A DNA stretch of 64,000 bases from the NCBI GenBank assembly GCA_029688995.1, contig JARULA010000002.1, positions 496,001 through 560,000 on the forward strand, written 5' to 3'. A model generated the notes under the pieces. That model saw nothing but the letters and a program-made list of their open reading frames with translations. It was not told where the DNA came from and ran no database searches. A program made the translations under genes and the position numbers. This stretch comes from Marinilabiliaceae bacterium ANBcel2. Lineage in GTDB: Bacteria; Bacteroidota; Bacteroidia; Bacteroidales; Marinilabiliaceae. The first letter of the stretch is position 1. The number at the start of each line of letters is the position of its first letter. Below are positions 25,002 to 32,699 of this stretch, piece by piece.

Positions 25002-25931
25002 ATGAATCTTCAGCAGCTTGAGTATATTGTAGCATTAGATGAGTATAGACATTTTGTGACCGCAGCAGAAAAATGTTTTGTCACTCAGCCAACTTTAACA
25101 ATGCAATTAAAAAGACTTGAAGATGAGATTGGAATTCAACTTTTTGATCGTACTCGTAAACCTCTTATACCTACGGGTGAAGGGGAGGCTTTTATTGCCA
25201 GAGCAAGAAGAATTTTAAGAGATTTAAATGATCTTGAAAACTTTCTTGTTGAAGAGAAAAAAAGTATTGAAGGAGTTTTTAGAATTGGTGTTATACCAAC
25301 TCTTGCTCCTTATGTTTTGCCACTGTTTTTAGATCGTTTTAGCAGAGAAAATCCTAAAACATATCTAAAAATTGAAGAGCTTAAGTCTGAGTCAATAATT
25401 AAGGCACTGCATAATGATCACTTGGATTTAGGTATTATGGCAACACCTGCTGGAGAGAAGGATTTAAAAGAGACTCTTTTGTTTAACGAACCTTTTCTTT
25501 TTTATGGTTCTTATAATCATCCTTTTCTTAAAGAAGAAAGGGTTGACCCCGATAAGTTAGATAGATCTTCGCTATTATTACTTGCTGAGGGACATTGTTT
25601 TAGAGATCAGGCCCTTAATATTTGTAATGAAAAAGGGGATGAATTTGTTTCTATGAATTTTCATTATGAAAGTGGTTCAGTAGAGACTTTAAAGAGATTG
25701 GTTCAATCCGGTCTCTGTTATACTTTGGTTCCGCAATTATCGGTAAGTGATTTTGAGAGTAAAAATGTTAAGCGCTTTATTTCACCAGAACCTGTTAGAG
25801 AAGTAAGTTTGGTATCACATATTAGCTTTAATAAAACTGCTTTAATTGATTCAATCAAGGCTATTATTCAGGAAGAGCTTCCCGGTGATATCTCAACTCC
25901 GCATGAGGTGAAAAAAATAAAATGGAGATAG
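25002..25931 (+). CDS. oxyR: Hydrogen peroxide-sensing transcription regulator OxyR (LysR family)
   Basis: LysR-type regulator of 309 residues. The N-terminal winged helix-turn-helix starts MNLQQLEYIVALDE with TQPTLTMQLKRLEDEIG. The sensor domain has the OxyR redox pair at the same positions as in E. coli, C199 and C208 (EGHCFRDQALNIC), so peroxide forms a disulfide that alters DNA binding. It follows dnaJ closely, grouping protein-folding and oxidative-stress functions. Its stop codon is just upstream of the trp promoter. Confidence 0.93.
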   Translation: MNLQQLEYIVALDEYRHFVTAAEKCFVTQPTLTMQLKRLEDEIGIQLFDRTRKPLIPTGEGEAFIARARRILRDLNDLENFLVEEKKSIEGVFRIGVIPTLAPYVLPLFLDRFSRENPKTYLKIEELKSESIIKALHNDHLDLGIMATPAGEKDLKETLLFNEPFLFYGSYNHPFLKEERVDPDKLDRSSLLLLAEGHCFRDQALNICNEKGDEFVSMNFHYESGSVETLKRLVQSGLCYTLVPQLSVSDFESKNVKRFISPEPVREVSLVSHISFNKTALIDSIKAIIQEELPGDISTPHEVKKIKWR

Positions 25932-25932
25932 A

Positions 25933-25964
25933 TTTGCATATTAATTTTTTGTTGTGTAAAATTG
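25933..25964 (+). promoter_or_regulatory. Probable promoter of the trp leader and operon
   Basis: TTTG at 25933-25936, 20 bases, then TAAAATTG at 25957-25964, one mismatch from TAnnTTTG. It starts 2 bases after the oxyR stop and would begin a transcript about 38 bases before the leader peptide. TAGATTTG at 25929-25936 is an alternative -7 box. Confidence 0.5.
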
Positions 25965-26007
25965 CAAATAAGTAGTGAGTATAAACTTAAGTATAGATTT
26001 TTTAGTG

Positions 26008-26073
26008 ATGGGAATATGTTTTTGTAATAATAATTGGTGGTGGCAAACTTCATACCTGACTTCCGGGAGGTGA
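26008..26073 (+). CDS. trpL: trp operon leader peptide with three consecutive Trp codons
   Basis: Short frame of 21 codons plus stop: it starts with ATG GGA ATA, carries TGG TGG TGG at codons 10-12 (26035-26043) and ends with TGA at 26071-26073. Trp codons are rare, so three in a row just before a hairpin terminator and trpE is the hallmark of ribosome-mediated attenuation: when charged tRNA-Trp is scarce the ribosome stalls here and the downstream terminator does not form. Too short for automatic gene calling. Translation is inferred, not shown. Confidence 0.8.
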   Translation: MGICFCNNNWWWQTSYLTSGR

Positions 26074-26113
26074 AGCAATGCCCTTTTGTGTTATTACAAA
26101 AAACTAGAATATT

Positions 26114-26152
26114 AAAAAAGGCTTGTCGGACTCCCGACAAGCCTTTTTTTTT
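26114..26152 (+). terminator. trp attenuator terminator
   Basis: GGCTTGTCGG (26120-26129) pairs perfectly with CCGACAAGCC (26134-26143) around the loop ACTC, extended by an A run (26114-26119) against T9 at 26144-26152. It lies between the leader peptide and trpE, 25 bases before the trpE ATG. CTCCCG at 26131-26136 in its loop and 3' arm is complementary to CGGGAG at 26064-26069, giving a possible competing pair. Confidence 0.85.
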
Positions 26153-26177: not shown

Positions 26178-27590
26178 ATGAAAAAGTACATCTTAGATTT
26201 AAAATGTAGCTCTATTCCTCCAAATATTGGAGATGTAGTAACACCAGTTAGTGTATATCTTTCATTGAGAGATCTTTTCCCTAACACTATTTTGCTCGAA
26301 AGTTCCGATTATCATGGAGGAAATAACTCTATGTCGTTTGTTTGTTTCGATCCTGTTGCAGATTTTATAGTTGATAAAGAGGAGGTTGTTTGCCGATTTC
26401 CGGATGGTTTGGAGCAGTGCTATCCTTTACCTGCCTCTGAGAGTGTTCCCGATTTATTGACTCGATTTATCTCCTCTTTTATTTTAAAAGGGGAGAGTGA
26501 TGTCCCGGCATGCGGATTGTATGGATATACTAATTACGATGCAGTAAGATATTTTGAAGATGTTGATATTAAGGTTGATTCAGAAGCTCCCAACTCTATT
26601 CCGGATATGCGTTATCATCTCTATAAATCTGTAATTGCATTTAATCATTTTACTAACAAACTCTACTTTGTGGAGCATTTATGCAATTCGCAAGAGAGTC
26701 AAATTGATTCTTTACTTGAGATATTGAAGAACCGTACGGTTTCCTCTTTTGGCTTTCAGCCTTCAGGTGATGAGGTCTCTCCATTAAGTGACCAGCAGTA
26801 TAAAACCATGGTAAATAAAGGTAAAGAGCATTGTTATCGGGGAGATGTTTTTCAGATCGTACTCTCTCGTCTCTTTTCTCAATCTTTTACAGGAGATGAA
26901 TTTAATGTTTATCGTGCTTTGAGAAATATTAATCCCTCTCCATATCTTTTCTATTTCGATTATGGTGGTTATCGTCTGTTTGGTTCATCACCCGAGAGTC
27001 AGCTTGTTGTGGAAAACGGTGTTGCAACAATTAATCCTATTGCCGGCACTTTTAAACGTACAGGTGATGATATGCAGGATTTTAAACTTGCAGAGAAGCT
27101 TGCTGCTGATGTTAAAGAGAATGCCGAGCATGTTATGTTGGTAGATCTTGCTCGTAACGATCTTGCACGAAATTGTAAAAAGGTAGAGGTAACTACTTTT
27201 AAAGAGATTCAGTATTATAGTCATGTTTTACACCTTGTATCAGAGGTAAAGGGCGAGCTTAAGGGTAACAGATCTATACCCAGATTAATGGGGGACACTT
27301 TTCCTGCCGGCACTCTTTCAGGCGCACCTAAACATAAGGCTTTGGAGTTAATAAACAGATATGAGCCTCATCAAAGAAGTTTTTATGGGGGTTGTATAGG
27401 AAAAATAGGCTTTGATAGCTCTTTTAATCAGGCAATTACTATTCGCTCTTTTTTAAGTAAAAACAACAGACTCTTTTATCAGGCTGGAGCCGGTGTTGTC
27501 TCTGAATCGGATGATATAAGTGAACTCAATGAGGTTAGCAATAAGCTTGGAGCTTTAAAAAAAGCAATAAAATTTGCCCGTCAATTTTAA
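26178..27590 (+). CDS. trpE: Anthranilate synthase component I
   Basis: Converts chorismate to anthranilate using ammonia from TrpG. I start at the ATG at 26178 (470 residues, MKKYILDLK); a frame that opens at 26034 runs through the leader peptide and terminator and is not credible. The N-terminal Trp-binding motif LLESS (about residues 39-43) implies feedback inhibition by tryptophan. Catalytic core: FQIVLSRLFSQ, SPYLFYFDYGG, PIAGTFKRTGDD, HVMLVDLARNDLARNC and FPAGTLSGAPKHKALELI. First structural gene of a seven-gene operon, controlled by the upstream attenuator. Confidence 0.95.
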   Translation: MKKYILDLKCSSIPPNIGDVVTPVSVYLSLRDLFPNTILLESSDYHGGNNSMSFVCFDPVADFIVDKEEVVCRFPDGLEQCYPLPASESVPDLLTRFISSFILKGESDVPACGLYGYTNYDAVRYFEDVDIKVDSEAPNSIPDMRYHLYKSVIAFNHFTNKLYFVEHLCNSQESQIDSLLEILKNRTVSSFGFQPSGDEVSPLSDQQYKTMVNKGKEHCYRGDVFQIVLSRLFSQSFTGDEFNVYRALRNINPSPYLFYFDYGGYRLFGSSPESQLVVENGVATINPIAGTFKRTGDDMQDFKLAEKLAADVKENAEHVMLVDLARNDLARNCKKVEVTTFKEIQYYSHVLHLVSEVKGELKGNRSIPRLMGDTFPAGTLSGAPKHKALELINRYEPHQRSFYGGCIGKIGFDSSFNQAITIRSFLSKNNRLFYQAGAGVVSESDDISELNEVSNKLGALKKAIKFARQF

Positions 27591-27618: not shown

Positions 27619-28191
27619 ATGAAAATATTAGTCTTAGATAATTATGATTCTTTTACCTACAATTTGGTACATTATATAGAAGAGTTATCCAACCACAGTG
27701 TAGATGTTTATCGTAATGATAAAATTACTGTGAATGATGCTTCAAAGTATGATAAAATAGTCCTTTCGCCCGGTCCGGGGATTCCTGATGAAGCCGGAAT
27801 ATTAAAGGAGTTAATTTTTAAACTGGGCAGCACACACTCTATATTGGGTGTATGTTTGGGTTGTCAGGCTATAGCAGAGGTTTATGGGGGCTCTATTTTT
27901 AATTTGCCTTATGTTTTTCATGGTATTGCCACACCTGTTAGAGTTACTGATAAAAATGAGGTACTTTTTAATAAACTTAGTTCATCATTTATGGCTGGGC
28001 GATATCATTCGTGGATTGTTAACAGAAGAGGTTTGCCGGATGATCTGCTAATTACTGCTGTTGATGAAGAAGAGCAGATTATGGCCATTAGGCATCGTAA
28101 CTTTGATGTGTGTGGAGTTCAATTTCACCCCGAGTCTGTTTTAACTCCGGATGGTAAAATGATGATAGAGAACTGGCTAAAAAGTGCATAA
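27619..28191 (+). CDS. trpG: Anthranilate synthase component II (glutamine amidotransferase)
   Basis: Supplies ammonia to TrpE. Class I amidotransferase of 190 residues, MKILVLDNYDSFTYNLVHYI at the N-terminus, oxyanion region LSPGPGIPDEAG, nucleophile Cys in LGVCLGCQAIAEVYGG, and the His-Glu pair in VQFHPESVLTPDG. Separate from trpD (not fused as in E. coli). No pabA-specific feature is decisive, but the position between trpE and trpD makes the tryptophan role clear; it may also serve folate synthesis. Confidence 0.94.
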   Translation: MKILVLDNYDSFTYNLVHYIEELSNHSVDVYRNDKITVNDASKYDKIVLSPGPGIPDEAGILKELIFKLGSTHSILGVCLGCQAIAEVYGGSIFNLPYVFHGIATPVRVTDKNEVLFNKLSSSFMAGRYHSWIVNRRGLPDDLLITAVDEEEQIMAIRHRNFDVCGVQFHPESVLTPDGKMMIENWLKSA

Positions 28192-28243: not shown

Positions 28244-29251
28244 ATGTTACAACCTGTATTAAAAAAAATGTTTAATTATCAAACACTCTCTTCAAAAGAG
28301 GCATATAATGTTTTAGTTGAAATTACTCGCAATAGTTATACAAAATCTGAAGTTGTTGCTTTTTTATCGGTTTATATGATGAGAACTGTTACTGTTGAAG
28401 AGCTTACCGGCTTTAGAGATGCGCTGTTAGAGTTATGTTTGCCTGTTGATCTTTCCGATTTTAACACCATTGATATGTGTGGAACGGGTGGAGATGGTAA
28501 AAACACATTTAATATTTCCACTTTAGCATCTTTTATTGTTGCCGGGTCAGGAGTAAAAGTCTCAAAGCATGGGAATTATGGTGTTAGCTCGGGGTCAGGG
28601 TCATCTAATATGATGAGTTCTATGGGCTATAGGTTTTCTAATGATGAGTCAATTCTTAAAAAGGAGCTGGAGAGTGCAGGAATTTGTTTTTTACATGCTC
28701 CTCTTTTTCACCCTGCCATGAAGTCAGTCGGACCGGTTAGAAAAGAGTTGGGATTAAAAACATTTTTTAATATGCTGGGTCCAATGGTTAACCCCTCTTA
28801 TCCTAACAACCAGCTTGTTGGAGTTTTTGATCTTGAGCTTGCACGCTTATATCAATATATTTATCAAAAGCAGAATACCAATTTTACTATTGTACATAGT
28901 GTTGATGGGTATGATGAGATATCTTTAACTTCGCCTGTTAAGATAATTAAAAGGAGTGGAGAAGATCTTTTAAAGCCCGAAGATCTAGGTTTTGAGAGGT
29001 TGAAACCAGATTATATAAAAGGGGGGGAGAGCGTTGACTCGGCTAAATCTATTTTTGATAAAATTTTAAAAGGTGAAGGAACCAATGCATGGAATGATGT
29101 AGTGACAGCTAATGCTGCTATGGCTATTAAAACTATGTTTCCTGGAAAGGAGTATGACAGGTGCGTTGAGCTTGCTGCTGATTCGCTCCATTCGGGAGCC
29201 GCATTAAAAGCTTTAAACAAATTGTTAGAGGTAAATAACAAATTGAATTGA
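28244..29251 (+). CDS. trpD: Anthranilate phosphoribosyltransferase
   Basis: Joins anthranilate to PRPP (made by Prs, also encoded here). N-terminal helical domain, then the PRPP-binding motif DMCGTGGDGKNTFNIST, KHGNYGVSSGSGSSN, and the anthranilate-side segments HPAMKSVGPVRKELGLKTFF and NMLGPMVNP. At 335 residues it is full length and not fused to TrpG. It lies 52 bases after trpG and 41 before trpC. Confidence 0.95.
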   Translation: MLQPVLKKMFNYQTLSSKEAYNVLVEITRNSYTKSEVVAFLSVYMMRTVTVEELTGFRDALLELCLPVDLSDFNTIDMCGTGGDGKNTFNISTLASFIVAGSGVKVSKHGNYGVSSGSGSSNMMSSMGYRFSNDESILKKELESAGICFLHAPLFHPAMKSVGPVRKELGLKTFFNMLGPMVNPSYPNNQLVGVFDLELARLYQYIYQKQNTNFTIVHSVDGYDEISLTSPVKIIKRSGEDLLKPEDLGFERLKPDYIKGGESVDSAKSIFDKILKGEGTNAWNDVVTANAAMAIKTMFPGKEYDRCVELAADSLHSGAALKALNKLLEVNNKLN

Positions 29252-29292
29252 GAGGATTCTTTTAACTAATTATTTAAGAAAGCAATTTTTTG

Positions 29293-30084
29293 ATGAATAT
29301 TTTGGACAAGATTATTACTAACAAAAGAGAAGAGGTACAGAGGAGACAGAGGATAAAAAGTGTAGAGAGTTTTAAAGATAGTTTTCTTTTTCACGAAAAG
29401 AGACCTTCACTTTATGATTATCTTTTAAATGGTAATGGAATTATTGCAGAATTTAAAAGAAAGTCTCCCTCAAAAGGCGAGATTAATTGCAAGGTAACTC
29501 CGGCTCAGGTTGTTTTGGGGTATCAAAAAGCTAATGTTTCTGCAATTTCTGTTTTAACTGATCATAAATATTTTGGAGGAAGTAATAGTGATTTAATAGA
29601 AGCCGTTGAAGTAACCTCTTTGCCTGTTATAAGAAAAGAGTTTATTATTGATGAGTACCAGATATATGAGGCAAAAGCTATTGGGGCCTCTGCAATATTA
29701 CTTATTGGAGCTCTATTAACAAAAGAGCAGGTCGCCTGTTTTTCTTCATTAAGCAGGCAATTGGGGATGGATGTTCTCTTTGAAATTCATGATAGCAAAG
29801 AGCTTGATAAGCTAAATAATGACATAGATATTGTAGGTATTAATAATCGTAATTTAAAAACTTTTAATGTAGATATAGAGCAATCGATTTCTCTTGCCTC
29901 TATGTTGCCTGCTGATAAATTGCCGGTTGCCGAAAGTGGTATACAAACCGTTGAAGATTATCTCTATCTTAAAAAATGCGGATTTAAAGGGTTTTTAATT
30001 GGAGAGACTTTCATGAGAAGCGCCCAGCCTGATAAAATGTGTCAATATTTTTGTAACCAAATAAAGATTGCAGAGAGATGTTAA
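29293..30084 (+). CDS. trpC: Indole-3-glycerol phosphate synthase
   Basis: Closes the indole ring from CdRP. TIM barrel of 263 residues with IIAEFKRKSPSKGEI (catalytic Glu and Lys), VSVLTDHKYFGGS (here ISVLTDHKYFGGS), LPVIRKEFIIDEYQI, VGINNRNLKTF and VAESGIQT. I use the ATG at 29293; the TTG one codon earlier is not needed. Its last 7 bases overlap the start of trpF, which indicates translational coupling. Confidence 0.95.
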   Translation: MNILDKIITNKREEVQRRQRIKSVESFKDSFLFHEKRPSLYDYLLNGNGIIAEFKRKSPSKGEINCKVTPAQVVLGYQKANVSAISVLTDHKYFGGSNSDLIEAVEVTSLPVIRKEFIIDEYQIYEAKAIGASAILLIGALLTKEQVACFSSLSRQLGMDVLFEIHDSKELDKLNNDIDIVGINNRNLKTFNVDIEQSISLASMLPADKLPVAESGIQTVEDYLYLKKCGFKGFLIGETFMRSAQPDKMCQYFCNQIKIAERC

Positions 30085-30710
30085 TAAAAGTGTGTGGAAT
30101 GAGGTGTCCTTCTAATATAGCACTTTTAGCTCAGCTTGATATTGACTATATGGGATTTATTTTTTATAAGAATTCTGCCAGATATATTGGTGATGATTAT
30201 ATTAATGGATTTAATGTTAGAGAATTAAACTTATCTCAAGTAACAAAAACCGGAGTTTTTGTTAATGTTAAAATAGAAGAGGTTAAAGAGTTTGCAAATA
30301 AATTTTCTTTAAACGCTTTACAATTTCACGGAGAGGAGAGTGCCGATTACTGTAAGGTTTTTAAGCAGATGGGTTTTGAAGTAATTAAGGCATTAAGACC
30401 ACAAAAAGAGTCTCTTAATAGTGTGGCGAGCCGTTATGAAAAGGTTTGTAACTATATTTTGTTTGATACCCCCACGGCTTTTTATGGTGGCTCTGGTAGA
30501 AAGTTTGACTGGTCGGTTTTGAATAGATATGATGCAGATACTCCATTTTTTTTGAGTGGTGGAATTGAGTTGGATGATGTTATGCAAATTAAGAAGATTC
30601 AAAATAAAAGTTTTGCAGGTGTTGATATTAATAGCAGGTTTGAAACAGAACCGGGACTGAAAGATTTTAACAGGGTGAAACAATTTGTTGAACAGATTAA
30701 AAAAAAGTAA
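30078..30710 (+). CDS. trpF: Phosphoribosylanthranilate isomerase
   Basis: Amadori rearrangement of PRA to CdRP. TIM barrel of 210 residues with KVCGMRCPSNI (catalytic Cys), DYMGFIFYKNSARYI, KTGVFVNV, LQFHGEE, FDTPTAFYGGSGRKFDW with the catalytic Asp, and FLSGGIELDDV plus GVDINSRFE. Separate gene, overlapping trpC by 7 bases (ATGTTAA) and 6 bases before trpB. Confidence 0.94.
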   Translation: MLIKVCGMRCPSNIALLAQLDIDYMGFIFYKNSARYIGDDYINGFNVRELNLSQVTKTGVFVNVKIEEVKEFANKFSLNALQFHGEESADYCKVFKQMGFEVIKALRPQKESLNSVASRYEKVCNYILFDTPTAFYGGSGRKFDWSVLNRYDADTPFFLSGGIELDDVMQIKKIQNKSFAGVDINSRFETEPGLKDFNRVKQFVEQIKKK

Positions 30711-30716
30711 TAATAT

Positions 30717-31895
30717 ATGATCTATCCTGATAGTAAAGGTTTTTATGGAGAGTTTGGCGGAGCTTTTATTCCAGAAATGCTGCTGCCAAATATTGAGAGA
30801 CTTAAGAGTTGTTATAATGAAATATTGTCTTCAGATGGTTATAAACAAAAATTGAGTTCGCTTTTGAACGACTATGCAGGCAGGCCTACTCCATTATATG
30901 AGGCCTCAAACTTATCTTCATTTTATAACACTAATGTATGGCTTAAAAGAGAGGACCTTAATCATACAGGATCTCATAAAATTAATAATACTATTGGTCA
31001 AATTTTGTTAGCTAAAGAGTTGGGCCGAACCAGAATAATTGCTGAAACTGGTGCAGGACAGCATGGCGTAGCTACTGCTACAGTAGCAGCTTTAATGAAT
31101 ATGGAGTGTGTTGTTTATATGGGAGAGGTTGATATAGAACGACAGGCTCCAAATGTTGCACGTATGAAAATGCTTGGAGCTGAAGTGCGACCAGCTGTTT
31201 CTGGAAGCAGAACTTTAAAAGATGCTACCAATGAAGCTTTGCGAGACTGGATAAATAATCCGACCGACACTTTTTACATTATTGGTTCGGTAGTTGGCCC
31301 TCATCCATATCCCGATATTGTAACTCGTTTACAAAGTGTTATTGGTATAGAGATAGAGGAGCATTTTCGTCTTAAAACCGGGAAGGATTATCCCGATTAT
31401 GTTCTCTCTTGTGTAGGAGGTGGCTCTAATGCAGCAGGGAGCTTTTTTCCATTTATTAATAATGATAATGTTACGCTTTTGGGAGCTGAGGCTGCAGGGT
31501 TGGGTGAGAAGAGCGGAAAAACTGCTGCTTCTATGGCCTGTGGTGATAAAGGTGTAATTCATGGTAGTTTTACTTATTTGATGCAGAATGATGATGGTCA
31601 AATTACTGAACCTTATTCATTATCTGCCGGATTAGATTATCCTGGTGTTGGACCGCTTCACTCTTTTTTAAAAGTAAGTAATCGAGCTCAATATATTCCT
31701 GTTAGTGATAAAGAGGCGCTTGATGCAGCTTTGCAGCTGACCAGACTTGAAGGTATTGTGCCTGCATTGGAGTCGGCTCATGCTTTGGCTCTTTTAAATA
31801 AAAGAGAGTTTCTTCATGGTGAAAATGTTGTTATAACAGTTTCGGGACGGGGGGATAAGGATATGCAGACCTACATGAGGGAGTTTAATTTGTAA
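30717..31895 (+). CDS. trpB: Tryptophan synthase beta chain
   Basis: PLP subunit that joins indole and serine. 392 residues of the common TrpB1 type: YGEFGGAFIPEML, RPTPLYEA, KREDLNHTGSHKINN with the PLP lysine, ETGAGQHGVA, CVGGGSNAAGSF for phosphate binding, and GLDYPGVGPLHSFL. All interaction surfaces for an alpha chain are expected, and trpA follows 36 bases later. The C-terminal SGRGDKDM motif with the PLP-nitrogen Ser is intact. Confidence 0.96.
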   Translation: MIYPDSKGFYGEFGGAFIPEMLLPNIERLKSCYNEILSSDGYKQKLSSLLNDYAGRPTPLYEASNLSSFYNTNVWLKREDLNHTGSHKINNTIGQILLAKELGRTRIIAETGAGQHGVATATVAALMNMECVVYMGEVDIERQAPNVARMKMLGAEVRPAVSGSRTLKDATNEALRDWINNPTDTFYIIGSVVGPHPYPDIVTRLQSVIGIEIEEHFRLKTGKDYPDYVLSCVGGGSNAAGSFFPFINNDNVTLLGAEAAGLGEKSGKTAASMACGDKGVIHGSFTYLMQNDDGQITEPYSLSAGLDYPGVGPLHSFLKVSNRAQYIPVSDKEALDAALQLTRLEGIVPALESAHALALLNKREFLHGENVVITVSGRGDKDMQTYMREFNL

Positions 31896-31931: not shown

Positions 31932-32699
31932 ATGAGGTTAACCAATATTTTTAATAATAAAAGCGATCTTTTATCTGTCTATTTTACAGCAGGATTTCCT
32001 GAATTGAACAGTACAATCTCGGTTTTGGAGGCTCTTGAAAATGCCGGTGTTGATTTTGTTGAGGTGGGTATGCCTTTTTCTGATCCTGTTGCTGATGGTC
32101 CAACAATTCAGGGTAGCAGCACTCATGCTTTGAACAATGGTATCTCTTTAAAACTGCTATTTGAGCAGCTTGAAGAGGCTAAAAAGAGGGTCTCTTTTCC
32201 GCTTATTTTAATGGGATATTTTAATCCGATTTTAAAATTTGGTGTGGAGAGGTTTGTAGAGCGATGTGTTGAGTGTGATATTCAGGGAGTGATTTTGCCC
32301 GATATGCCTTATGAAATATATGATGAGAAGTATCGTCATATTTTTGAAAAGAGGGGGGTATTTCCAATATTTTTAATTACTCCTCAAACTACAGATGAGC
32401 GTATTAAACTTCTGGATGAAAACAGTTCTCTTTTTTTATATATGGTTTCATCTTCCTCTGTTACAGGCAAGTCTTCAGGGAATAATATGCAGCAACTTGC
32501 TTACTTTAAAAGAGTAGCTGAGATGAAGCTTAAATCTCCTGTAATGACAGGTTTTGGTATTAGTGATAATAAGAGCTTTAAGCGAGTTTGTGGTTATACT
32601 AATGGAGCTATTATTGGCAGTGCTTATGTTTCTGCAATAAAAAATAGTGTTGATATAGAGAGTGATACTCTATCTTTTGTAAAGAGAATTCGGGGTTAA
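31932..32699 (+). CDS. trpA: Tryptophan synthase alpha chain
   Basis: Cleaves indole-3-glycerol phosphate and channels indole to TrpB. TIM barrel of 255 residues with catalytic Glu in DFVEVGMPFSDPVADGP (second catalytic Asp in VILPDMPYE), LILMGYFNPIL, FLITPQTTDERI, and the phosphate loop TGFGISDNKS and GAIIGSAYV. Last gene of the operon, which contains all seven Trp functions in the order E-G-D-C-F-B-A. A terminator follows. Confidence 0.95.
   Translation: MRLTNIFNNKSDLLSVYFTAGFPELNSTISVLEALENAGVDFVEVGMPFSDPVADGPTIQGSSTHALNNGISLKLLFEQLEEAKKRVSFPLILMGYFNPILKFGVERFVERCVECDIQGVILPDMPYEIYDEKYRHIFEKRGVFPIFLITPQTTDERIKLLDENSSLFLYMVSSSSVTGKSSGNNMQQLAYFKRVAEMKLKSPVMTGFGISDNKSFKRVCGYTNGAIIGSAYVSAIKNSVDIESDTLSFVKRIRG

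Follow-up and report, generated by a model that had tools for sequence, protein, structure and literature searches.

A predicted ribosome-mediated tryptophan attenuator in front of the trp operon of Marinilabiliaceae bacterium ANBcel2 and its counterparts in other Bacteroidota

Analysis of the region upstream of trpE in Marinilabiliaceae bacterium ANBcel2 reveals a short leader peptide gene with three consecutive Trp codons, followed by an intrinsic terminator. Judged from sequence comparison and RNA modelling, it is highly likely that transcription of the trp operon is attenuated at this site by a ribosome-mediated mechanism. Such a switch very probably lets the bacterium make the Trp enzymes only when tryptophan is short. 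All positions refer to the window, which is the whole stretch of 64,000 nt (64 kb) analysed here.

An initial annotation of the window had already proposed this reading. Conservation supports it, and an antiterminator, which was absent from that annotation, can be drawn with partial comparative support. The trp attenuator arrangement is sound and largely expected, since this kind of switch had already been predicted for the phylum. The main additions of the present study are the comparative support, the under-calling of the element by Rfam in Marinilabiliaceae, and the duplicated and tandem attenuators found in relatives.

Leader peptide gene, promoter-like element and trp operon

The following features, all on the + strand, were identified:
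25933-25964: promoter-like element of Bacteroidota type, TTTG (25933-25936), a 20-nt spacer and TAAAATTG (25957-25964)
26008-26073: leader peptide gene, ATG...TGA, 21 codons, encoding MGICFCNNNWWWQTSYLTSGR followed by TGA (by translation)
26035-26043: sensor codons TGG TGG TGG, codons 10-12 of the leader (read from sequence and translation)
26071-26073: leader stop codon TGA
26178-27590: trpE, anthranilate synthase component I, ATG at 26178
27619-28191: trpG (TIGR00566 above cut-off)
28244-29251: trpD (TIGR01245 above cut-off)
29290-30084: trpC (NF001377 above cut-off)
30078-30710: trpF (best-matching families are phosphoribosylanthranilate isomerase)
30717-31895: trpB (TIGR00263 above cut-off)
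31932-32699: trpA (TIGR00262 above cut-off)

The leader and its run of three Trp codons had been placed exactly to the base in the initial annotation, as sequence and translation confirm. The promoter that was called plausible there is a promoter-like element of Bacteroidota type: TTTG-N20-TAAAATTG has one mismatch to TTTG/TAnnTTTG, the general consensus of Bacteroidota promoters, and is a better fit to the sigma factor of this phylum than to sigma-70 of E. coli. The same element is enriched 5' of the leaders of relatives, with a mean of 1.29 mismatches in 10 positions versus 2.59 in Markov controls. We infer that the promoter is active, that the leader is translated in coupling with its transcription, and that the operon responds to tryptophan.

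As had been noted, trpE follows the terminator; in fact the complete trpEGDCFBA operon lies on one strand 3' of leader and terminator, ending at 32699. A gene for an OxyR-like LysR-type regulator (25002-25931) is located on the same strand directly 5' of the trp leader. The attenuator is tied to trp gene regulation by position only, namely by its place before the trp operon and by the copies before split trp units described below. Searches of the genome (a 98% complete draft assembly) for TrpR, TRAP and the T-box (RF00230 covariance model) gave no match.

The 9-mer TGGTGGTGG occurs a single time in the window, and 30 copies are found in the whole genome. Therefore the 9-mer by itself is not rare, and the rarity lies in the combination of leader and terminator. 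In 100 random 64-kb windows of the same dinucleotide make-up we found 24 such 9-mers and not one complete set of leader and terminator.

Terminator

26114-26152, + strand: intrinsic terminator, 16-bp stem 26114-26129/26134-26149, loop 26130-26133, T9 26144-26152

The stem consists of a G+C-rich 10-bp core (26120-26129/26134-26143; GGCTTGTCGG/CCGACAAGCC) with the loop ACTC, lengthened to 16 bp by six A-U pairs. The perfect 10-bp terminator with T9 that had been described at 26120-26152 is therefore correct, its stem extending further from 26114. Folding of 26072-26152 yields -28.5 kcal/mol, with a z-score of -7.0 versus shuffles. A simple terminator scan missed the hairpin, probably because the T run lies partly within the stem, whereas direct folding shows it. 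In the family alignment compensatory changes occur in nine out of 12 aligned terminator pairs, 99% of the cells are paired and none of 500 shuffles equals this; RNAalifold recovers the terminator as the sole structure. By these comparative measures the terminator is firmly supported.

This bears on the question whether the leader might act mainly via translation, the position of the ribosome altering Rho or RNase access or the translation of trpE instead of intrinsic termination. Transcription-translation coupling in Bacteroidota is presumed here, which leaves some room for such control. However, nearly all of the leaders detected are separated from trpE by a strong T9 terminator with a covarying stem, and we consider control at this level highly improbable.

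Alternative pairings and proposed mechanism

26038-26083, + strand: 1:2 hairpin region, pairing the Trp codons with the leader end and post-stop sequence (MFE fold; arm ends approximate)
26065-26088, + strand: predicted antiterminator arm (region 2) across the leader stop codon, duplex with 26114-26134 of -13.6 kcal/mol

The MFE fold of the leader has a z-score of -6.3, and in this fold the 1:2 hairpin is nested in a longer helix (26021-26034/26090-26103). Across 89 distinct leaders the own partner in the 1:2 pairing is stronger than swapped partners, and none of 2000 permutations was as good; these and the following permutation counts are uncorrected for common descent and should not be read as exact probabilities.

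For the antiterminator, modelling and comparison have to be considered together. With a modelled ribosome on the Trp codons, 80% of the terminator 5' arm is predicted to pair upstream versus 54% with a shuffled spacer, the own spacer being superior to shuffled ones in 80 of the 89 leaders. The predicted partner of the 5' arm extends mainly from about 6 nt ahead of the leader stop codon to 14 nt behind it, and a ribosome that has reached this codon would cover the same region. The site in the window is predicted to behave in this way as long as the terminator 3' arm is not yet made: with the ribosome on the Trp codons the free RNA folds with -12.9 kcal/mol and the 5' arm is paired upstream, while with the ribosome at the stop codon only -1.9 kcal/mol is reached and the 5' arm is unpaired.

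In the family alignment the 2:3 pairing is register-specific. Covariation of the 2:3 pairs does not go beyond shuffles there (72% of the cells are paired, and 282 of 500 shuffles reach as high a value), in a test that is low in power because both sides are conserved. Swapping partners among the 89 leaders shows a slight gain for the own arms (-9.55 versus -9.00; 16 of 2000 permutations as good), and this test is weak because the arms are near-identical. When 15 loci with divergent terminators are used the own arms are favoured (64 of 20000 permutations as good). An antiterminator that is mutually exclusive with the terminator can thus be drawn, and sequence comparison and modelling support it moderately, less strongly than the terminator.

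The following sequence of events is proposed. RNA polymerase would initiate some 40 nt upstream of the leader gene, with a ribosome following behind. Under a shortage of charged tRNA-Trp, this ribosome would stall at the Trp codons 26035-26043 and open the 1:2 hairpin, which would free 26065-26088 to pair with the terminator 5' arm (26114-26134); with this antiterminator formed, the terminator would be blocked and trpEGDCFBA transcribed. With ample Trp, it is the stop codon that the ribosome would reach, at 26071-26073, and it would cover 26065-26088, so that the 16-bp terminator would form and transcription would end at 26144-26152, before trpE.

The little antiterminator covariation leaves the switch less firmly established than the terminator, and one might therefore think of a leader RNA that is controlled otherwise, by a Trp-binding aptamer, by a TRAP-like protein or, in the manner of TnaC, by free Trp that acts on the nascent peptide. 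Yet neither TRAP nor a T-box was found in the genome, and the peptide varies widely outside the retained consecutive Trp codons, unlike an arrest peptide. Furthermore, extra free Trp should repress and not induce a biosynthetic operon. Control of this sort seems very unlikely to us, and stalling at the Trp codons is the reading that we follow here.

Conservation in Bacteroidota

The closest named neighbours of this trpE are those of Natronoflexus and other Marinilabiliaceae, within the Bacteroidota. A Trp-codon leader with a terminator was present in all 31 Marinilabiliaceae genomes checked, i.e. those having trpE with upstream sequence. In the wider Bacteroidota an automatic test detects leader and terminator upstream of trpE in 93 out of 126 regions, a set in which duplicates were kept and some regions are cut by contig ends. 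Several loci without a leader before trpE (e.g. L034, L144) were not scored as true absences, because in some Bacteroidota another trp gene comes first. Two loci (L004, L005) have an insert of about 240-450 nt, without a recognised gene, between terminator and trpE.

WWW is found in 74 of the 89 distinct leaders, the remainder having WW or WxW. In these leaders the distance from the Trp run to the stop codon is mostly 7-11 codons and that from the stop to the terminator start is 21-51 nt. Beyond the Trp run the leader peptide is widely variable between loci, and the consecutive Trp codons are retained. Absence of conserved Trp codons and terminator in close relatives had been named in the initial annotation as grounds to reject the attenuator, and the reading survives this comparison: Trp run, run-to-stop distance, terminator and position before trpE are kept in the family and beyond.

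Duplicated and tandem attenuators

Loci L155-L157, before trpC: extra WWW leader and terminator copies
Locus L158, before trpB and before trpE: extra WWW leader and terminator copies

In three genomes with split trp operons (G014, G024, G007) a second leader with terminator precedes trpC, besides the one before trpE. The trp operon of G358 is split as well, and has separate leaders and terminators before trpB and before trpE, the leader peptides of both copies being near-identical. Because each split trp unit carries its own leader and terminator, the attenuator is tied to the trp genes and not to the upstream neighbour of trpE. Leader, Trp codons, terminator, spacing, conservation and the copies ahead of split trp units can be taken as established at the level of sequence and comparison.

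It could still be argued that the hairpin simply ends transcription of the oxyR-like gene upstream and that the three-Trp ORF is a product of chance. The terminator lies about 180 nt past this LysR-type gene, with no further terminator-like site reported by the scan in between. But a promoter-like element separates that gene from the leader, and in 89 distinct loci leaders with a Trp run keep an almost constant spacing to the terminator. Neither these facts nor the copies before trpC or trpB in relatives, nor the failure of any random window to give the full set, fit a terminator of the upstream gene. We regard this explanation as extremely improbable and keep to attenuation of the trp operon.

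Two Trp attenuators in series, at most about 430 nt upstream of trpE, were observed in eight loci of the Prolixibacteraceae type (L078, L081, L082, L083, L085, L092, L094, L101) and likewise in L095, L113 and L119. The upstream leader of these tandem loci encodes a conserved peptide, either NTIWLPWWGLL or KSIWLWWGNTFLC, and is followed by a terminator of its own; the arm CAATATGGCT...AGCCATATTG of its hairpin hardly varies. The second leader has its own Trp run, either WWW or, in L095, L113 and L119, WRW/WSWRW/WTWRW; it is followed by a terminator and then trpE. When 198 genomes of the order were searched at the DNA level for the upstream tandem leader, a single strong additional case emerged. 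Tandem leaders that are both WWW, each with its own terminator, occur within 430 nt upstream of trpE in L030 (G042).

The attenuator could be a modular cassette in this branch of Bacteroidota, with one copy per split trp unit and with serial pairs in some lineages, in which the upstream one has its own conserved peptide (IWLPWWGLL or IWLWWGNTF). The sole Trp-dependent transcriptional control may also be exerted by this cassette. For this proposal as a whole we see about even chances.

Comparison with known systems

In the literature searched we found no experimental proof of ribosome-mediated trp attenuation in Bacteroidota, and as far as this literature shows, such attenuation has so far merely been predicted for the phylum. 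The site described here offers a clean testable case. If the proposed mechanism is true, transcription and translation would have to be coupled closely enough in these bacteria for the leading ribosome to steer the polymerase.

The T-box and TRAP systems of Firmicutes likewise control trp genes via transcription termination, but neither was matched in this genome. The E. coli trpL leader (RF00513 Trp_leader) shares with our site the Trp-codon leader, the alternative hairpins, which are predicted here, and the intrinsic terminator before trpE, and on this anatomy our site would operate by the same mechanism. However, both are not recognisably homologous, as there is no RF00513 match at the site at E values up to 10. 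While E. coli trpL has two Trp codons, three consecutive ones are present here, and no TrpR match was obtained in this genome.

The closest known element is the Bacteroidete tryptophan peptide leader RNA, RF01692 Bacteroid-trp, which was predicted in 2010 from Bacteroidetes by Weinberg et al. (PMC2864571); in Flavobacterium psychrophilum the Bacteroid-trp motif was noted ahead of the trp operon in a paper from 2019 (PMC6414381). The initial annotation was unaware that this RNA had already been described for Bacteroidota.

25988-26127, + strand: match to RF01692 Bacteroid-trp, model positions 1-131 of 131, 43.7 bits, E 3.5e-4

With the Rfam gathering threshold applied, the site went unmatched, and RF01692 surfaced by an E-value search alone. 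Both have in common the occurrence in Bacteroidota, the trp operon context, consecutive Trp codons within the 1:2 hairpin, a match over the full length and on the right strand, and the conserved 3' end AAAAAGGCUUGUC, which is the terminator 5' arm. They differ in that the site has a longer insert in the hairpin and scores below the threshold. Since its 43.7 bits are under the gathering threshold of 49 bits, we consider the site a close sub-threshold relative and do not file it as a member of RF01692.

In Marinilabiliaceae 40 out of 60 genomes have an RF01692 match at E <= 1, but only one out of 60 lies above the 49-bit cut-off; a relative from this family (L013/G036) reaches 49.7 bits. In Bacteroidota 27 of 296 genomes pass the cut-off. 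Because the cut-off is passed in a single Marinilabiliaceae genome while the element is present in every trpE-bearing genome checked, the Rfam model misses most members from this family and the branch is under-annotated for trp control. The kind of element is already known, and the site upstream of trpE is a divergent, unannotated instance of it.
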